Shown: positions 17,298 through 25,152 of the stretch, one piece after another
How positions within the stretch are numbered: position 1 is the stretch's first letter
Layout: the number at the start of each line of letters is the position of its first letter
From: Fretibacterium sp. OH1220_COT-178
Lineage (GTDB): Bacteria; Synergistota; Synergistia; Synergistales; Aminobacteriaceae
Direction of reading: 5' to 3'
DNA: 60,316 bases
Assembly: GCF_003860125.1 (NCBI RefSeq)
Contig: NZ_RQYL01000020.1
Location: 1-60,316, forward strand
Made by a program: the position numbers and the translations under genes
The notes under the pieces: generated by a model
What the model was told of the DNA's origin: nothing
Databases searched by the model: none
Seen by the model: the letters and a program-made list of their open reading frames with translations, nothing else

Positions 17298-17340
17298 GCC
17301 GTCGACGTTCCCCGGAAAGGCCGGGGGGGCGTTGACGGCA
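17298..17340. repeat. Array hairpin 1 (after the last array gene)
   Basis: GC-rich hairpin with core CCCCGG AAAGG CCGGGG at 17310-17326. The outer arms are TGCCGTCGACG and CGTTGACGGCA with one mismatch. A second hairpin (TGACGGC...GCCGTCA) overlaps the stop codon of the gene ending at 17348. It belongs to the four-copy set in this array. Confidence 0.8.
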
Positions 17341-17347
17341 TGGGCCG

Positions 17348-17989
17348 TCATCCGACCAGCCGCCCGCCTTTCGACCCTTTCGAGGGGGCGTTCAGACGCC
17401 ACCCCGCCTCTCGGTCGTACCGGACGTAGCCGCTGTTCCACGCCCAGCCCAGGATCGCACGGCGCAGCTCCCCCATACGCGCCCGGTCGGAAAGGTCCGG
17501 GTCCAATCCCTCACGCAGCGCACGGGACAGTGCTCGACATTGGGGCATCCATTCGCCATAAATCTCGAGCGACAGCATGAGGAGCGGGATGCCCAGGAGA
17601 ACAACGAGAACGATGGACACGTAAAAAAACGGTCCCAGGCTATCCGCCACGGAAGCGCGTTCGAGATCGTCCACAAAACTGCCCAGACTCCAATTGCCGA
17701 GGAACAGGGCCATGGACGCGACAGCCAAGATCCCCCATACCGCTTTGCAGTAATAGGCAAAGACACGCAGGTAAGGATTGTCGGAAGCCCAGATACGCAA
17801 AAATTCCCTGGGGGTGGATGTATTATGGGCGGGACAGAAGAACCATCGCCCCTCACCACGAAATTTCCGGACATAGACTTTATTCAGCCCGCCATACCAC
17901 AGGGACAGCATAACCTCCTCGGTCAGCGCCGCCTTGGCCTCCTCGTCACATGACCCCAGACTTCCTCGTCGAGTCCCTGTTCTCATCAT
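17348..17989 (-). CDS. Tandem-array membrane protein, C module alone (paralog H)
   Basis: Unrecognised family; 213 residues. It starts with SLGSCDEEAKAALTEEVM, then the array motif LSLWYGGLN (about residues 29-37). Next come the WASDNPYLRVFAYYCK motif, two membrane segments (about 78-98 and 118-140) and a charged cytoplasmic tail with GLDPDLSDRARM, ELRRAILGW and GYVRYDRE. The last 45 residues are nearly identical to those of the gene at 21253-22266. It begins 6 bases after its N-module partner (17996-18331), so the pair looks like a split version of that fused gene. No catalytic residues are evident. Confidence 0.7.
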   Translation of the reverse strand: MMRTGTRRGSLGSCDEEAKAALTEEVMLSLWYGGLNKVYVRKFRGEGRWFFCPAHNTSTPREFLRIWASDNPYLRVFAYYCKAVWGILAVASMALFLGNWSLGSFVDDLERASVADSLGPFFYVSIVLVVLLGIPLLMLSLEIYGEWMPQCRALSRALREGLDPDLSDRARMGELRRAILGWAWNSGYVRYDREAGWRLNAPSKGSKGGRLVG

Positions 17990-17995
17990 TTTTCC

Positions 17996-18331
17996 TCATG
18001 CTTTTTTACCTTCGCGGCAATTTTTCGACATGTAAAATCGTATGGTATTTATTATGCTCGATGCCGCTATCACAATAATGTACATTGCTATCATCGACAA
18101 CGAATATGATTCCATTCTGCTCCCCCAGATAAAAAACAATCCCAGCAGAATCCCGCCGCAGTTCTGCTGTATCTGGAAGACGACATCCCACCGGGCATAT
18201 TCGTCAACGGAGGATCTTTTCCGTTCCCCAATACGCCCCAGCCGCCGCAAGCGCACCCAGGGAACGAAGAACAACCAACCGGACACCGCCACCAACCACA
18301 GAAGCCCCAGTACGAACCGCAGCGTCGTCAT
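17996..18331 (-). CDS. Tandem-array membrane protein, N module alone (paralog G)
   Basis: Unrecognised protein of 111 residues with the array's N module: TLRFVLGLLWLVAVSGWLFFVPWVRL as the first membrane segment, DEYARWD in a loop, then one or two further hydrophobic segments ending in a basic tail. Its ATG overlaps the stop of the long paralog upstream by 4 bases (18328-18331). The C module follows as a separate gene 6 bases later. Product and function are unknown. Confidence 0.6.
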   Translation of the reverse strand: MTTLRFVLGLLWLVAVSGWLFFVPWVRLRRLGRIGERKRSSVDEYARWDVVFQIQQNCGGILLGLFFIWGSRMESYSLSMIAMYIIVIAASSIINTIRFYMSKNCREGKKA

Positions 18332-19218
18332 TCGGGACTCACCGCTCCCTCATTCGGCTTCCAGCATCGTTCCTCACGGTCATAGCGAACGTAACCCTTC
18401 TCCTGTCCCCAGCCCAGAATGGTCCGGCGCATCTCCGCCAGCCGTGCACGGTCGGACAGGTCCGGGTCTCTGCCTTCTCTCAAAGCGCAAACCAGCTCCC
18501 GGTAGTGCGCCATCCACTCCCGGCGGATGGGCCAGGCAAAGGTGAAAAAAACAATGCCGACGAAAATCGTCATAGGGATGTGCACATACAGATTGGGCAC
18601 GGCTGCCTCTTGAAAGGGGACATCGAGTTCGCGAGTTCCGTCAAGACGTCCGAGCATGTTGCCGACAACCCCCATCATCAACAACATCCCCAGGAACATG
18701 ACGTTCTGTCCTTTGATGTAATAGGCGAAAGCGCGCAGGCGAGGGGAATCCCAGGCCCAAGCCCGTGTACGGGGAAAGAGAACCTCCAGCCTCCCTCTGC
18801 TGAAAAAATTCGAATGGTACAGATCCTCGAGATGCCGTATATATTTCGTGTTCAATCCTCCGTACCACAAGGAGAGCATTTCCTCATTATCCAGAACTTC
18901 ATCGTCATCCGCATCGTAAAGGCCGTCTATGGGGGCCTCGAAACGGACCAGCCACAACCCCAGAAGAAAGAGCGTCAAGGCCAATCCCGTACAGCGGGGC
19001 GCGAACTCCCGCCAAACTCCGCCCAGCCCCACGGCGATGGTTGCTCCGCCCCAGCACAGCGCCCTCAAATCGCACAGGACGGCAAACCTGCCGAAGTGAG
19101 CCCCGGCACGTCTGGGCAGGTAATTCCGTGCTTGCCACAGATAGCCTACAGGATACAGAAATATCCCCAAACCTATCGTCAGCCATAAGCTCCCCAGAGA
19201 GAAACGCAGCGGCGTCAT
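18328..19218 (-). CDS. Tandem-array membrane protein, long form with N and C modules (paralog F)
   Basis: 296 residues, family not recognised. The N module (about 1-110, starting TPLRFSLGSLWLTIGLG) has two or three membrane helices. The linker FEAPIDGLYDADDDEVLDNEEM leads into LSLWYGGLN. The C module follows with RTRAWAWDSPRLRAFAYYIK, two membrane helices, IRREWMAHYRELV, EGRDPDLSDRARLAEMRRTILGW and YVRYDRE. GGAGGACG precedes the ATG. It is preceded by a repeated leader and hairpin (19201-19321) and overlaps the next gene by 4 bases. Confidence 0.72.
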   Translation of the reverse strand: MTPLRFSLGSLWLTIGLGIFLYPVGYLWQARNYLPRRAGAHFGRFAVLCDLRALCWGGATIAVGLGGVWREFAPRCTGLALTLFLLGLWLVRFEAPIDGLYDADDDEVLDNEEMLSLWYGGLNTKYIRHLEDLYHSNFFSRGRLEVLFPRTRAWAWDSPRLRAFAYYIKGQNVMFLGMLLMMGVVGNMLGRLDGTRELDVPFQEAAVPNLYVHIPMTIFVGIVFFTFAWPIRREWMAHYRELVCALREGRDPDLSDRARLAEMRRTILGWGQEKGYVRYDREERCWKPNEGAVSPE

Positions 19219-19321
19219 CCCAACGTCCTCCTGCCTGCAATTGCTGCCGTTCGATCCCCCACACGCGCTTCCATCGGCACCTCCCCTCCCCGATGCGCGA
19301 ATCCCCCGGAAAGGCCGGGGG
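19201..19321. repeat. 121-base direct repeat, copy 1 (gene start, leader and hairpin)
   Basis: Matches 23154-23274 without gaps at 116 of 121 positions. It holds the first codons and ribosome binding site of a long paralog, a conserved leader and hairpin 2 (CCCCCGG AAAGG CCGGGGG, 19303-19321). The offset between copies is 3953 bases. Confidence 0.88.
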
Positions 19322-19341
19322 GCGTTGACGGCTACGGGCCT

Positions 19342-19662
19342 TTATGAGGCTCTGCGCCGCCGCTCGTCGAAATCCTTATAAAAACCTGAACCGCAGACAA
19401 GAAATAAAAGATGCATAACGAGCGTCACCACTATGAACCGGAGGTAATAGTCCCACCAGATAACCCCTATCCCCAGCGATAGACCGCTACAGATAAACAC
19501 AAAGCATTTGATGATCAGCCATCGGGCATAATATTCACAAAACCGCGGACCTTGCCACGGACTTCGGAAGGCACGCCACAGCCATGCGCAGGGAACGGGA
19601 AACATCCAGACCAACGTAACGATGACCCACAGCAGGCTCAGCACCAAACATCGGCTCGTCAT
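19342..19662 (-). CDS. Tandem-array membrane protein, N module alone (paralog E)
   Basis: 106 residues, unrecognised. It opens TSRCLVLSLLWVIVTLVWMFPVPCAWLWRA, contains the EYYARW loop shared with other N modules, then two more hydrophobic segments and a basic tail DFDERRRRAS. ATG 19662 is chosen because it overlaps the upstream stop by 4 bases (19659-19662), as elsewhere in the array. No C module follows; hairpin 2 comes next, so this unit has lost its C module or never had one. Confidence 0.58.
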   Translation of the reverse strand: MTSRCLVLSLLWVIVTLVWMFPVPCAWLWRAFRSPWQGPRFCEYYARWLIIKCFVFICSGLSLGIGVIWWDYYLRFIVVTLVMHLLFLVCGSGFYKDFDERRRRAS

Positions 19663-20579
19663 CCTATCATCCGCCCCTTCTGCGCGTTCAGCCGCCAGAC
19701 GCCCCACTCCCGGTCGTAACGAACATAGCCGCTGCTCACTCCCCATCCCAGGACCGCCCGTCGCATCTCGGCCAACCGCACACGATCGGACAGGTCCGGG
19801 TCACGCCCCTCTTTCAGCGCGCAAGCCAATGCACGGTAGTGTGGCATCCACTCCCTGCGGATGGCATTGGCAAAGAGAAAGAACACGAAACCGATCAGAA
19901 TCGTCATGGGGATACGGACGCAGAGAAAGGAAAGGACCGCTGCATCCTGAGCGAGGGCACACGAGGGACCTCGTATCGCCTGGACCTTTTGATACGTGAA
20001 CCCCACTACCTGAAGCAGCAGGAACGACATTGCATAGAGGGTGCTCTGCCCCTTGAAATAATAGGCCACAACACGCAGGCAGGGATTGTCCCAGGCCCAG
20101 GCCCATGTGTGTGAAAAATTGATTCCCGACGCCTTCTCCGAGACAGCCCTGCGGTGTTGCGACCGGTACGATTCCATTTTCTTCAAGAAATACTTTTCGT
20201 TCAGGCCGCCGTACCACAGAGCAAGCATCTCCTCGTCGCTCATCACCTCCTCGTCGTCCGCATCGAACAGGCCGCGGATGGGGGCTTCGAAGTAGAGCAT
20301 CAGAGCCCACAGCAAAAGAAAAATGCCGGCCACATTCAGGCAGAGTTCCGCATACTGCGGGCGAGCTTCGGCATGGAACCCGATCGGCCCCAACGCAATG
20401 ACGAAGCCCATCAGACAAAACGTCTTCAGCACTCCCCAAATGGCAAAAGCCCCCTCCTGCATGCCCGCACGAGGAGGGATGAAGCCGAAGGAACGCCACA
20501 GATGAACGCATGGAATGAAAAATGCAAAAAAAATCGCGATAATGAGCCATAGGACTCCCCAAGCCAAACTCAAGGTCAT
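19659..20579 (-). CDS. Tandem-array membrane protein, long form with N and C modules (paralog D)
   Basis: 306 residues, family not recognised. The N module starts TLSLAWGVLWLIIAIFFAFF. The linker FEAPIRGLFDADDEEVMSDEEM precedes LALWYGGLN. A longer variable insert (to about 160) comes before TWAWAWDNPCLRVVAYYFK. The tail has IRREWMPHYRALACALKEG, DPDLSDRVRLAEMRRAVLGW and GYVRYDRE. ATG 20579 overlaps the stop of the preceding gene (ATGA, 20576-20579). The open frame extends well upstream but only through antisense-like sequence of the neighbour. Confidence 0.72.
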   Translation of the reverse strand: MTLSLAWGVLWLIIAIFFAFFIPCVHLWRSFGFIPPRAGMQEGAFAIWGVLKTFCLMGFVIALGPIGFHAEARPQYAELCLNVAGIFLLLWALMLYFEAPIRGLFDADDEEVMSDEEMLALWYGGLNEKYFLKKMESYRSQHRRAVSEKASGINFSHTWAWAWDNPCLRVVAYYFKGQSTLYAMSFLLLQVVGFTYQKVQAIRGPSCALAQDAAVLSFLCVRIPMTILIGFVFFLFANAIRREWMPHYRALACALKEGRDPDLSDRVRLAEMRRAVLGWGVSSGYVRYDREWGVWRLNAQKGRMIG

Positions 20580-21187
20580 CTCGCTCCTCGCCCTCCCCGG
20601 ATCTTCAGTCGCCATCGATCGGCATACCGAACGTAGCCGCTGTTCCATGCCCAGCCCAGGACCGTCCGGCGCATCTCCTCCATACGCACACGATCGGCAA
20701 GATCGGCGTCTCTCCCCCCTTTCAGGGCGGCGGCTAAAACGCGGTAATGGGATATCCATACCCTGTATCTCCTCTTATGCGACAACACCAAAAGCGGGAT
20801 GACGATGAGCCCCCAGGAGATGGCAAGGCTACGAAGCAGCAGCCCCAGATTCTCCAACATGGAGGTATGCTTCATACGGTCCAGAAAACTTCCGATGCAA
20901 GAACAGCCGAAAATAATGCCCATGGACGCCGTTGCAAGCAGGCCGAATACGGCTTTGCAATAATAGGCGGAGGCACGCATGTGGGGGTTGTCCCAAGTCC
21001 AGGCCCTGAAACATTCCCTTGGGATATCAGGTATAAATTCGAAAACCCATCGTCCCTCTTCACGGAATTTCTGCACGTAAATCCTGTTCAGTCCGCCGTA
21101 CCACAGCGACAGCATCTCCTCGTCGGTCAGAGCCGCCTCGGCCTCCTCACTGCACGGCCCCAGGCTTTTGACCTCGACATTATCCAT
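20576..21187 (-). CDS. Tandem-array membrane protein, C module alone (paralog C)
   Basis: 203 residues, unrecognised. It begins DNVEVKSLGPCSEEAEAALTDEEM, then LSLWYGGLN, RAWTWDNPHMRASAYYCK, two membrane segments, and the tail DADLADRVRMEEMRRTVLGWAWNSGYVRY. ATG 21187 is chosen because it gives the same N-terminal cap as paralogs B and H. It follows hairpin 3 directly and overlaps the next gene by 4 bases. No N module precedes it within the same unit. Confidence 0.68.
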   Translation of the reverse strand: MDNVEVKSLGPCSEEAEAALTDEEMLSLWYGGLNRIYVQKFREEGRWVFEFIPDIPRECFRAWTWDNPHMRASAYYCKAVFGLLATASMGIIFGCSCIGSFLDRMKHTSMLENLGLLLRSLAISWGLIVIPLLVLSHKRRYRVWISHYRVLAAALKGGRDADLADRVRMEEMRRTVLGWAWNSGYVRYADRWRLKIRGGRGAR

Positions 21188-21214
21188 CGGCACCCCCCTC
21201 CCCGATGCGCGGAT

Positions 21215-21233
21215 CCCCCGGAAAGGCCGGGGG
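21215..21233. repeat. Array hairpin 3
   Basis: CCCCCGG AAAGG CCGGGGG perfect hairpin between paralogs B and C, flanked on the left by about 30 bases matching the leader of the 121-base repeats. On the right lies a TGACGGC...GCCGTCA hairpin that overlaps the stop region of paralog B. Confidence 0.8.
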
Positions 21234-21252
21234 ACGTTGACGGCATGGGCCG

Positions 21253-22266
21253 TCATCCGACCAGTCGCCCGCCCTTCGACCCTTTCGAGGGAGCGTTCAG
21301 ACGCCAACCCACCTCTCGGTCGTACCGGACGTAGCCGCTGTTCCACGCCCAGCCCAGGATCGTACGGCGCAGCTCCTCCATACGCGCCCGGTCGGAAAGG
21401 TCCGGATCCCGACCCTCCTTAAGAGCTCGCGACAGAGTTCGATAGTGTTTCCTCCACTCCCTGCCGGGGAAGCAGAAACAATAAAGAAAAAAAGGCCCCA
21501 TAACGGCAAGACATGACACAAAACGCCAAACCAAGTCACTCCAATCATAACCCGTAATGTTTTCTTCCCAAAAATCAGCAAAAACCATAATGTCACTGCT
21601 TGTAAAGAGAAGAAACACGACTATTATGGACAGCAGGCAAAGTACAGCCTTGATATAGTAGGCGAGCGCCCGCAGGTAGGGATTGTCCGAGGCCCAGGCC
21701 CGCAGGTATTCCGGAGGCGTATGGTTCAAAGGCGTTCCAATCCACCGACCCGCTCCGCGGAACTTCCGCGCATAGACCCCGTTCAATCCGCCGTACCACA
21801 GCGACAGCATCACCTCGTCGGTCAAAGCACCCTCGGCCTCCTCACTGCACGGCCCAACGCTTGCAGCTACCCCATCCCGGGGAAACACACGCTCTCGCTC
21901 CGGCTCCGGGGAGCTCTCGCTGCTTCCACGACCGACCAAGGACGGCCCTCTCAATCGTTCGAATATGTCCCGGAACAAAGGAAGGACAACCGCAACAATG
22001 CCCACTCCAGCAAAAACAAACACGAAATAATTCTTCCAAACAGGTGTCAACCCCAAAAAGACCAAGACAAAAAGAAGCGATATGCGGCAGAGTACTCCCT
22101 CTCGGGCATATCCATCGAGGGGCGATTCGCCGCGCTGCCTCCAAAACTGCCCCGAGCGCCACAGGTGCGGACAAAGAGGCAGAAGCAGCCAGACGAAAGA
22201 CACGACGAGCCACAGGGAACCCAGCCATAAGGGAAAGATGGAAGAATAGGAATCATCGGGGGTCAT
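21253..22266 (-). CDS. Tandem-array membrane protein, fused N+C of the short types (paralog B)
   Basis: 337 residues, unrecognised. Residues about 1-105 are an N module (FPLWLGSLWLVVSFVWLLLP, DGYAREGV). A linker rich in Ser, Pro and charged residues (about 106-140) joins it to a C module whose cap SVGPCSEEAEGALTDEVM matches stand-alone paralogs C and H. Then come LSLWYGGLN, WASDNPYLRALAYYIK, two membrane segments and the tail shared almost exactly with H. Start ATG 22266 overlaps the upstream stop (ATGA). It is the fused counterpart of the split pair G and H. Confidence 0.72.
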   Translation of the reverse strand: MTPDDSYSSIFPLWLGSLWLVVSFVWLLLPLCPHLWRSGQFWRQRGESPLDGYAREGVLCRISLLFVLVFLGLTPVWKNYFVFVFAGVGIVAVVLPLFRDIFERLRGPSLVGRGSSESSPEPERERVFPRDGVAASVGPCSEEAEGALTDEVMLSLWYGGLNGVYARKFRGAGRWIGTPLNHTPPEYLRAWASDNPYLRALAYYIKAVLCLLSIIVVFLLFTSSDIMVFADFWEENITGYDWSDLVWRFVSCLAVMGPFFLYCFCFPGREWRKHYRTLSRALKEGRDPDLSDRARMEELRRTILGWAWNSGYVRYDREVGWRLNAPSKGSKGGRLVG

Positions 22267-23171
22267 CCGATCAGGCGCCCCCCTTCCGATTGTGCCCCAG
22301 AGCCCAGCCTCCATGCGCCGGCATTTCGGTCGTAATGGACGAGACTTTTCTCCCGAGCCCAGCCCAGAACCGCCCGGCGCATCTCGGCCATGCGTGCCCG
22401 GTCGGAAAGGTCCGGGTCCCTGCCCTCTCTCAGGGCGCGAACCAGCTCCCGGTAACGCGCCATCCACTCCCGGCGGATGGCCCAGGCAAAGGGGAGAAAT
22501 ACGACGCAGGTAAAGAGCGCCATGGGAATCCGGACCCATAAACCGGGCATATTTCTCAATACGTATTCGTCAGACAGTATCTTGTAATTACCTGGCAAAT
22601 AAATCATCTTAAGTTCTCTGGTGCCGGAAATTCTCCCCGCCGCCATCAGCAGCAGCAACGTCGCCAACAGAAAAGCGGCAAACTGGGCCTTGAAGTAATA
22701 ACCTGCGGCCCGAAGCTCGGGGTCGTCCCAAAACCAGGCACGCGTCCGGGAAAAGCTGTAATCCACACCCCATCGGCTTCGGGCCCGAGCGTAAATTGCG
22801 TTCAAGCCGCCGTACCACAGCGACAGCATCTCCTCATTGCTCAGAACCTCCTCGTCGTCCGCATCGAACAGGCCGTCTATGGGCGCCTCGAAAAAGATCA
22901 GCCACACACCCAGAAGCAAAAGGGTCAAGGCCGTCTCGAGGCAGAGATACAGGTGCTCCCACCAGAACGCCGACAGCCCCGCAACAATGCCCGACACGAT
23001 GAAGCAAAGCTGCCTCACCGCCCCCACCGCGGCAAAGGTGCCGTTCCGGGCTCCGACCCGAACGCTCCGGTACCCCCACGCCCGCCAAAGGTGCACGCAG
23101 GGCAGGGGCAGCATCCAGGCCGACGACCCAGCCAGCCAGAGGAGCCCGAGCACGAAACGCAGCGGCGTCAT
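22263..23171 (-). CDS. Tandem-array membrane protein, long form with N and C modules (paralog A)
   Basis: 302 residues, first gene of the array proper. N module TPLRFVLGLLWLAGSSAWMLPLP; linker FEAPIDGLFDADDEEVLSNEEM; LSLWYGGLN; RTRAWFWDDPELRAAGYYFK; two membrane segments; IRREWMARYRELVRALREG; DPDLSDRARMAEMRRAVLGW. ATG 23171 is preferred to the GTG at 23177 because GGAGG is 8 bases upstream of the ATG. Its first codons and leader are part of the 121-base repeat also found before paralog F. Confidence 0.72.
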   Translation of the reverse strand: MTPLRFVLGLLWLAGSSAWMLPLPCVHLWRAWGYRSVRVGARNGTFAAVGAVRQLCFIVSGIVAGLSAFWWEHLYLCLETALTLLLLGVWLIFFEAPIDGLFDADDEEVLSNEEMLSLWYGGLNAIYARARSRWGVDYSFSRTRAWFWDDPELRAAGYYFKAQFAAFLLATLLLLMAAGRISGTRELKMIYLPGNYKILSDEYVLRNMPGLWVRIPMALFTCVVFLPFAWAIRREWMARYRELVRALREGRDPDLSDRARMAEMRRAVLGWAREKSLVHYDRNAGAWRLGSGAQSEGGRLIG

Positions 23172-23274
23172 CCCCACGTCCTCCTGCCCTCAATCGCTGC
23201 CGTTCGATCCCCCACACGCGCTTCCATCGGCACCTCGCCTCCCCGATGCGCGAATCCCCCGGAAAGGCCGGGGG
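23154..23274. repeat. 121-base direct repeat, copy 2 (gene start, leader and hairpin)
   Basis: Counterpart of 19201-19321, five mismatches and no gaps. It includes hairpin 4 (23256-23274), which sits just after the TIG-like gene and before paralog A, where it could act as a partial terminator. Confidence 0.88.
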
Positions 23275-23291: not shown

Positions 23292-24134
23292 CTACTCGAA
23301 ATAAAGCACCTTAGAAACGTCGGGCTCCAAGACCGTGCCCAGAACGCCCCGTTTGGCGCTTGACTCCCCTTTGACGTTAAAACGATAGAACTTCCTCACT
23401 CCCGGCGTAAGGTCGATCCCATCATCCTTCACGGGGGCATCGACATCACCCGTGATGCGGATGCTATACGTCCCTACGCCATCGGGCGCATTGACCCCCA
23501 GCAACATTGCCGTATGCGGCCCCGGCGTCAGCAGAAGGCCGTCCCACGTTTTAACGTACGAGCCCGGCGAGGCGTACAGGGTCCCCTTGTCCACCCCATC
23601 CAGAAAGAGGCGGAAGGCGTCGTCCTTCCAGTTGCCGCTGTCCCACACCATGACCTTGACCGCCCCTCCCAGCTTCTTGGTCACCGTGTACCAGACCGGG
23701 TCGTCGGTCCAGCTCGTCCAGGTCCTGCCGTCGTCGCCGCTGACCCGTACCTGCACCAGATGCTTGCCCTCCTCCAACTGCGGGGGAAGCTGAGCCCAGA
23801 GGGATCGAGGGTTAGACGGCAGGAAAACCTCAGCCTCGATTCCGCCAATACGCACCTGATTGTTTTCCGGCCTCGAGTGGAAACCCATTCCACGGATGTG
23901 CAAAACAGCCCGGTTTGTCCCTTCCTCAGGCGCTATGGACTGAACATGGACATTCTCCGAAAAGGAGACGGCCTTGGGCAGGGTCTGCAGGGCAGTGCCC
24001 GTGAGATCCCGCGAGGTATACTGAAAATCGAGGTAGTTGCCCGTCTGCTCCCCCACGCGGAAGCCGAGGCCAAAATGATGAGTTGCTCTAGCCTCAATTT
24101 TAGCGATAATTGCTCTATGGGTCAAACTGTTCAA
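23292..24134 (-). CDS. Probable exported-type protein with a TIG-like domain, 5' end uncertain or truncated
   Basis: Open frame of up to 280 residues. About residues 55-135 look like an IPT/TIG immunoglobulin-like domain (VLHIRGMGFHSRPENNQVRIGG, LVQVRVSGDDGRTWTSW). Two beta-rich segments follow, with ATGs absent at the N-terminus. There is no signal peptide. The first usable codon is TTG 24134, but the only good promoter (24097-24125) lies inside that stretch, which leaves GTG 24056 as a downstream start without a ribosome binding site. The protein therefore looks like the surviving end of a larger gene. It precedes the tandem array on the same strand. Function is unknown. Confidence 0.5.
   Translation of the reverse strand: MNSLTHRAIIAKIEARATHHFGLGFRVGEQTGNYLDFQYTSRDLTGTALQTLPKAVSFSENVHVQSIAPEEGTNRAVLHIRGMGFHSRPENNQVRIGGIEAEVFLPSNPRSLWAQLPPQLEEGKHLVQVRVSGDDGRTWTSWTDDPVWYTVTKKLGGAVKVMVWDSGNWKDDAFRLFLDGVDKGTLYASPGSYVKTWDGLLLTPGPHTAMLLGVNAPDGVGTYSIRITGDVDAPVKDDGIDLTPGVRKFYRFNVKGESSAKRGVLGTVLEPDVSKVLYFE
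24097..24125 (-). promoter_or_regulatory. Candidate promoter for the TIG-like gene and tandem array
   Basis: TTGACC (24120-24125), 17 bases, TAAAAT (24097-24102) on the minus strand. It faces the array and is divergent from the WYL regulator. Confidence 0.5.
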
Positions 24135-24231: not shown

Positions 24232-25152
24232 ATGAAAACGGACCGCCTGCTCGGCATCATCATCCATCTGCTGAATCACGACAACGTCTCCGCCTCCCGT
24301 CTGGCGGAGCGGTTCCACGTCTCGGTCAGGACCATCCAGAGGGACATGATCGGCATATCCGCAGCAGGAATTCCAGTATATTCCGTCAACGGCAGGTTCG
24401 GGGGCTATTCCATCCTGCCGGAGTTCAAGATGAAGAACATCGACATCCGGAGCGGCGAACAGCAGATGATCGTGCGGGCGCTGGAAAGCCTCGCAACCTC
24501 CTACTCCAACGATACCCTCAATTCCCTGATCGAGAAATACAACGCCATCATCGAAAGGGAGGGGGGCCGGAAGGTCTTCTGGGATTTCAGCGTCACGAAA
24601 GAAAACCAAAGGGTCCAGGGCCTGAACGCCGCGCTGGAGTCGGCCATCTCCGACAGGCGTTGCATTGCGTTCGACTACCGGAACGCAGCCGGCAGGGAAT
24701 CCCGCCCCCACGTCGAGCCGCTGGCCATCCACTACAAGTGGTACGCGTGGTACCTGTTCGCCTGGTCCGAGGAATGCGGGGAATACCGGACGTTCAAGGT
24801 GGCGAGGATACGCAATCTCGAGGTTTCGGAACGAAGATCGCGGATCGATCACGGGGATGTCGAGCAGCGCATGAAGGAGTCGGAGCAGGCGTACTACAGG
24901 ACCTGCATCGACATAGAGGTCCGGTTTCCGGCGGGGGACGCGCCCCTGATGGAGGAGTACTTCCCCGACTGCCCGATGGAGAGGCTGACGGAGGATACGG
25001 GCAGGATATTCATCCGGGTTCCCGCAAAAGAACGGCTGTGGAAAGCGCTGCTGCTCAGCTTCGGGGACAGGGTGACGGTCGTCGGCCCGGAGGCGTATCG
25101 GGAGGAGCTGAAGGAAACGGCACGCAAGTTCCTGTCCAACTACGACATATAG
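24232..25152 (+). CDS. WYL-domain transcriptional regulator with DeoR-type helix-turn-helix
   Basis: 306 residues. The N-terminal HTH_11 domain (DRLLGIIIHLLNHDNVSASRLAERFHVSVRTIQRDM) is followed by a wing GIPVYSVNGRFGGYSI. The WYL sensor domain is at about residues 130-215 (HYKWYAWYLFAW, RTFKVARIRNLE), and a WCX-type C-terminal extension follows. GGAGG lies upstream of the ATG. It stands 77 bases before the ABC transporter operon on the same strand and probably controls it (inference). Confidence 0.9.
   Translation: MKTDRLLGIIIHLLNHDNVSASRLAERFHVSVRTIQRDMIGISAAGIPVYSVNGRFGGYSILPEFKMKNIDIRSGEQQMIVRALESLATSYSNDTLNSLIEKYNAIIEREGGRKVFWDFSVTKENQRVQGLNAALESAISDRRCIAFDYRNAAGRESRPHVEPLAIHYKWYAWYLFAWSEECGEYRTFKVARIRNLEVSERRSRIDHGDVEQRMKESEQAYYRTCIDIEVRFPAGDAPLMEEYFPDCPMERLTEDTGRIFIRVPAKERLWKALLLSFGDRVTVVGPEAYREELKETARKFLSNYDI

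Follow-up and report, generated by a model that had tools for sequence, protein, structure and literature searches.

The closest described systems are immunity arrays of non-identical paralogues. TsaI proteins, which protect against the membrane-depolarising toxin TspA, are predicted to be five-transmembrane (five-TM) proteins in Nout-Cin orientation and are encoded in runs of non-identical copies (PMC7456083); tsaI clusters are located immediately downstream of tspA and recombine little (PMC9484751). The T7SS-linked EsaG and TipC arrays, which counter the nuclease toxin EsaD and the lipid II phosphatase toxin TelC, recombine via conserved blocks of high DNA similarity (PMC9484751). The array at 17348-23171 (minus strand) of the window, meaning the whole stretch of 60,316 nucleotides that was analysed, resembles TsaI in its type of protein and EsaG in its mosaic evolution. 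Its closest working analogue is the TsaI (DUF443) immunity array of Staphylococcus aureus, although membership of that family is unsupported by sequence: none of the eight array proteins has a DUF443 match in Pfam at E <= 1, and a PF04276 search of the genome itself returned no match, as did its controls.

The eight genes are tightly packed, in the 5' to 3' order g8, g7, g6, g5, g4, g3, g2, g1, and fall into three units of about 2 kb, each with a single A gene (3+2 TM), B part (three TM) and C part (two TM). In the first unit, U1, the type A gene g8 (22263-23171, minus strand like all the others; 302 aa, with three TM, a cytosolic loop carrying LSLWYGGLN and WDDP, two further TM and a charged tail) is followed by g7 (21253-22266; 337 aa, five TM), in which B and C modules are fused and whose start lies within an ATGA overlap at the g8 stop. 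In U2, B and C are permuted: g6 (20576-21187; 203 aa, two TM), a C module alone, preceded by GGGGAGG and with an in-frame alternative start at 21256, comes before the type A gene g5 (19659-20579; 306 aa) and g4 (19342-19662; 106 aa, three TM), a B part, that is, an N module alone, without LSLWYGGLN or tail. In U3 the B and C parts are adjacent: after the type A gene g3 (18328-19218; 296 aa) come g2 (17996-18331; 111 aa, three TM), again B, or N module alone, and, 6 nt past it, g1 (17348-17989; 213 aa, two TM), a C module alone. Further ATGA overlaps join g6/g5, g5/g4 and g3/g2, and translation is presumably coupled across all four. The array is single in the genome, a genome-wide search giving no further copy of the C module.

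The first-pass annotation had described eight genes that share a set of motifs, paired membrane helices and a soluble tail. The genes and the motifs are present, together with hydrophobic segments in pairs and a tail that is charged, but the motif module (LSLWYGGLN, W-x-D-x-P and the charged tail) belongs to six of the eight (g1, g3, g5, g6, g7 and g8, with LALWYGGLN in g5), while g2 and g4 consist of the N-terminal three-TM module only; the two-module architecture described there likewise applies to g3, g5, g7 and g8 and not to the C-only g1 and g6. Across the six genes the C-module alignment has 41 invariant columns, with the motifs E-x-M-L-[SA]-L-W-Y-G-G-L-N and W-x-x-D-x-P-x-x-R-x-x-x-Y-Y-x-K and, in the tail, D-x-D-L-x-D-R...L-G-W...V-x-Y-D-R. 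This likeness is not a matter of chance, because protein identity among the six C modules is 37-60% and the other five copies are returned at genome-wide E-values of 1e-80 to 4e-29; profile A2 recovers all six at E <= 2e-80.

From hydropathy and charge, g3, g7 and g8 are predicted to have five TM in Nout-Cin orientation. Type A and g7 are predicted to start with the N-terminus outside; an R-rich loop on the inner side links TM1 to TM2, and TM3 is followed by an acidic loop of about 70-100 residues in the cytosol, which bears the motifs LWYGGLN and W-D-N-P. In this prediction TM4 and TM5 are joined by a short outer loop of variable sequence, and the chain ends inside in a K/R-rich tail. The TM4 region of g5 lies under the hydropathy threshold, so that four segments are above it; B alone is predicted from hydropathy to have three TM and C alone two. 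AlphaFold helices match the predicted TM segments at low confidence, and the tail is modelled as a helix-helix-beta hairpin in weak structure models (pLDDT 63 and 62), for which Foldseek gave no match under E 1; the best VIA score, Z 6.2, was to a coiled-coil from p85, whose helix arrangement is a common one, and is uninformative. In trees, A and BC sequences form separate clades, with support of 0.999 for the C module and 0.909 for the N module. Since g7 unites in one gene what g2 and g1 encode apart, B and C probably assemble into a single five-TM protein made of two pieces, which may partner A. The DNA past g1 and g4 resembles the 3' flank of g7, and pieces have therefore probably been lost and moved.

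That the proteins belong to no known family, as had been supposed, is borne out by searches of Pfam, NCBIfam, PHROGs, PADLOC and PDB sequences, which gave nothing significant. Relatives were also absent from 50,697 phage records and 72,556 plasmids, from IMG/VR viral contigs (three scans) and from an 85k-genome collection (two scans), the collection scans using a few peptide patterns by which distant relatives can be missed. Profile searches of 188 genomes of the same phylum with the C and N modules gave no accepted relative: of two marginal matches, at E-values of 8e-4 and 1e-3, the first runs across other genes, identified from sequence as a chemotaxis-receptor frame and a CobO-like one, and the second (L020) reaches 20 bits in a frame of different length. 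Across genomes, phages, plasmids and viral contigs, the family thus appears, as far as such searches reach, to be found in this genome only. The C-only proteins (about 200 aa, with a two-TM hairpin and flanking cytosolic helices) are taken here to resemble SLATT or two-TM effector domains; SLATT gave no Pfam match at E <= 1 and none in PADLOC, and no conflict-system partner gene was recognised.

Pairwise pS among the C modules is 0.55-0.74; synonymous sites are near saturation and the cytosolic motifs are nonetheless kept, a pattern to be expected of genuine coding sequences, so the copies are old genes under selection. The first-pass annotation had pictured conserved cytosolic tails and variable outer segments, and the substitution pattern agrees, with pN of 0.11-0.28 in the tail versus 0.35-0.69 in TM4-loop-TM5 and pS high almost throughout; given the near-saturated synonymous sites, diversifying and relaxed divergence of the TM segments cannot be told apart. 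Superimposed on this are blocks of much higher similarity: g1 and g7 are 65% identical overall and 96% over a 120-nt 3' block, and g3 and g8 are 67% identical overall and 96% in a 5' block (0 of 2000 permutations in each case). The simplest reading is that the copies are mosaics produced by recent exchange of parts, because the g3/g8 5' block extends into non-coding DNA and because pS in the g1/g7 tail drops to 0.27, against 0.79-0.87 in the rest of that pair. The conserved blocks through which the copies have recombined lie at the junctions and gene ends.

Tandem non-identical paralogues with exchange between copies are a generic feature of polymorphic-toxin immunity arrays, and this feature is present here. 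Another such feature is copy number that varies between strains; the genome searches returned no genome of the same genus. With TsaI the array shares more: a run of non-identical paralogues, the predicted five-TM Nout-Cin topology, a repertoire held at one locus, and one conserved part with the rest variable. The conserved part, however, is here the cytosolic loop and tail, whereas in TsaI it is TM1-2; split and fused B-C forms, A+BC units, junction hairpins and mosaic copies also set this array apart, as do the different organism group and the absence of a recognised adjacent toxin. As in the EsaG and TipC arrays, its tandem paralogues share stretches of closely similar DNA as exchange sites, but its products are predicted to be membrane proteins, and no toxin has been matched to them.

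The reading tentatively preferred is that the array is an orphan membrane immunity repertoire, working like TsaI against TspA. Its proteins would be seated Nout-Cin in the inner membrane; the conserved loop (LWYGGLN, W-D-N-P-x-L-R-x-x-A-Y-Y) and tail (DPDLSDR...GYVRYDR) would together make up a shared interface in the cytosol, and different incoming membrane-acting toxins would be recognised by the diverged TM4-loop-TM5 segments. It is on this putative combination of a common interface with segment-specific recognition that immunity would be the likeliest role. The reading is favoured by the TsaI-like topology, the split between conserved and variable parts, exchange as in esaG and tipC, the separate A and BC clades with g7 as the fused form, the lower GC3 of the array than of its neighbours (see below), and the Rhs and PT-HINT toxins encoded in the same genome. 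The resemblance to immunity arrays proposed in the first-pass annotation is thus strengthened, by the parallel with TsaI topology and architecture (PMC7456083, PMC9484751) as well as by inter-copy exchange and the toxins elsewhere in the genome, and the array proteins may have the membrane-anchored immunity or signalling role suggested there.

Those toxin genes are away from the array, PT-HINT and RHS matches occurring only on contigs C49 and C19. On C19 (2-3556, minus strand) a secreted Rhs-repeat protein of at least 1185 aa has its C-terminus cut by the contig end; C49 (4169 bases) carries a PT-HINT pretoxin tip whose end is DUF4160-like; after it come a protein with ankyrin repeats, as a candidate for immunity, then an ISL3 transposase and a displaced RHS tip. 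Against immunity, no toxin gene was recognised among the scanned neighbours of the array, unlike tsaI next to tspA; the mosaic copies sit poorly with an analogy to tsaI clusters, in which there is little recombination; and there is no match to a Pfam or PADLOC family.

Another possibility, plausible but short of likely, is a membrane complex specific to the lineage, a hetero-oligomer of A and split BC with a function other than immunity, such as envelope-stress sensing or transport, in which the loop and tail relay a signal or dock a partner in the cytosol, with the copies as paralogous subunits. That A, B and C parts each occur once in every unit is what such a complex would lead one to expect, as is the predicted cytosolic location of the best-conserved parts, with the tail modelled as described above; the ATGA overlaps and the leader ORFs with Shine-Dalgarno-like sequences (see below) suggest coordinated stoichiometry. 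The copies are strongly divergent, however, and so not dosage copies, nothing within the array can be recognised as a receiver, regulator or transporter partner, and the lack of a relative in the other phylum genomes searched argues against a core function.

The surroundings bear on a third explanation, an improbable one, in which the array is a defence or exclusion cassette that stems from a phage or plasmid and whose membrane proteins block entry of DNA or toxin brought by a mobile element. To the left of the array are genes for UvrA, a channel-like protein that from its sequence appears to be MscS-type, and SnoaL; genome G006 retains uvrA beside mscS with no array after them. To the right are an ORF at 23292-24110, a WYL regulator and an ABC transporter, and the scanned neighbours also include a SpoU methylase and metabolic genes. 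The 23292-24110 ORF (minus strand), directly upstream of the array, is an open frame without a good start that matches, at 43%, the C-terminal part (TIG domain) of a protein of about 1600 aa in genomes G049 and G057, and looks like the remnant of a large secreted protein. The WYL-domain regulator (24232-25152, plus strand) lacks a close counterpart (E <= 1e-40) among 82 further genomes of the family, and both it and the array may lie within a variable region. GC3 is 0.61-0.75 in the array versus 0.78-0.94 in seven neighbours, which suggests foreign origin or unusual selection. Low GC3, the adjoining regulator and remnant, and sparse distribution would all suit a mobile cassette, but the phage, plasmid and IMG/VR searches gave no match, the PHROGs and PADLOC libraries gave no significant one, and no integrase was seen among the scanned neighbours. 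Least probable is a tandem family in decay and of no functional importance, with copies kept by recombination: split and permuted modules and the apparent loss of pieces past g1 and g4 would fit, but each of the eight frames is open, and the residues of the motifs have been retained against near-saturated synonymous change.

Orphan families with several selected copies are often a sign of conflict between organisms. If the array does function in immunity, it would bring to light a family of membrane immunity proteins in a little-studied lineage with Rhs and PT-HINT toxins, and its split and fused layout could let specificity be swapped module by module. A fuller version of the immunity reading, rather unlikely as a whole, is that this is a new polymorphic membrane immunity (or sensing) family of intact and split five-TM pairs, with the approximately 2-kb units reshuffled at hairpins and TM4-TM5 swaps giving new specificities. 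If it does not function in immunity, it would represent a new membrane complex, for which the natural fusion g7 shows which parts belong together.

The units, the mosaic copies and the ATGA overlaps had not been noticed in the first-pass annotation, nor had the four junction hairpins and the leader ORFs. The 19-nt hairpin (CCCCCGG-loop-CCGGGGG) is found at a spacing of about 2 kb: upstream of U1 (23256-23274), at the U1/U2 boundary (21215-21233), at the U2/U3 boundary (19303-19321) and, with one mismatch, downstream of U3 (17309-17327); shuffles of the window give an expectation of 0.14 matches, and a 24-nt pattern built on the hairpin occurs genome-wide only at three of the four places. A terminator was considered and rejected, there being no T-run after the hairpin; the 131-nt leader folds no better than its shuffles (z +1.9), and an Rfam search gave no match. 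Candidate roles are a recombination site, an mRNA stabiliser or translational control. Two 19-codon leader ORFs lie behind GGGGAGG on the minus strand, MEARVGDRTAAIEGRRTWG at 23168-23227 and MEARVGDRTAAIAGRRTLG at 19215-19274, and their stop codons overlap the ATG of g8 and of g3, respectively, as ATGA. Near the junction hairpins there are also inverted repeats, GACGGC/GCCGTC and CATCGG/CCGATG, the latter spanning the GGGGAGG site.
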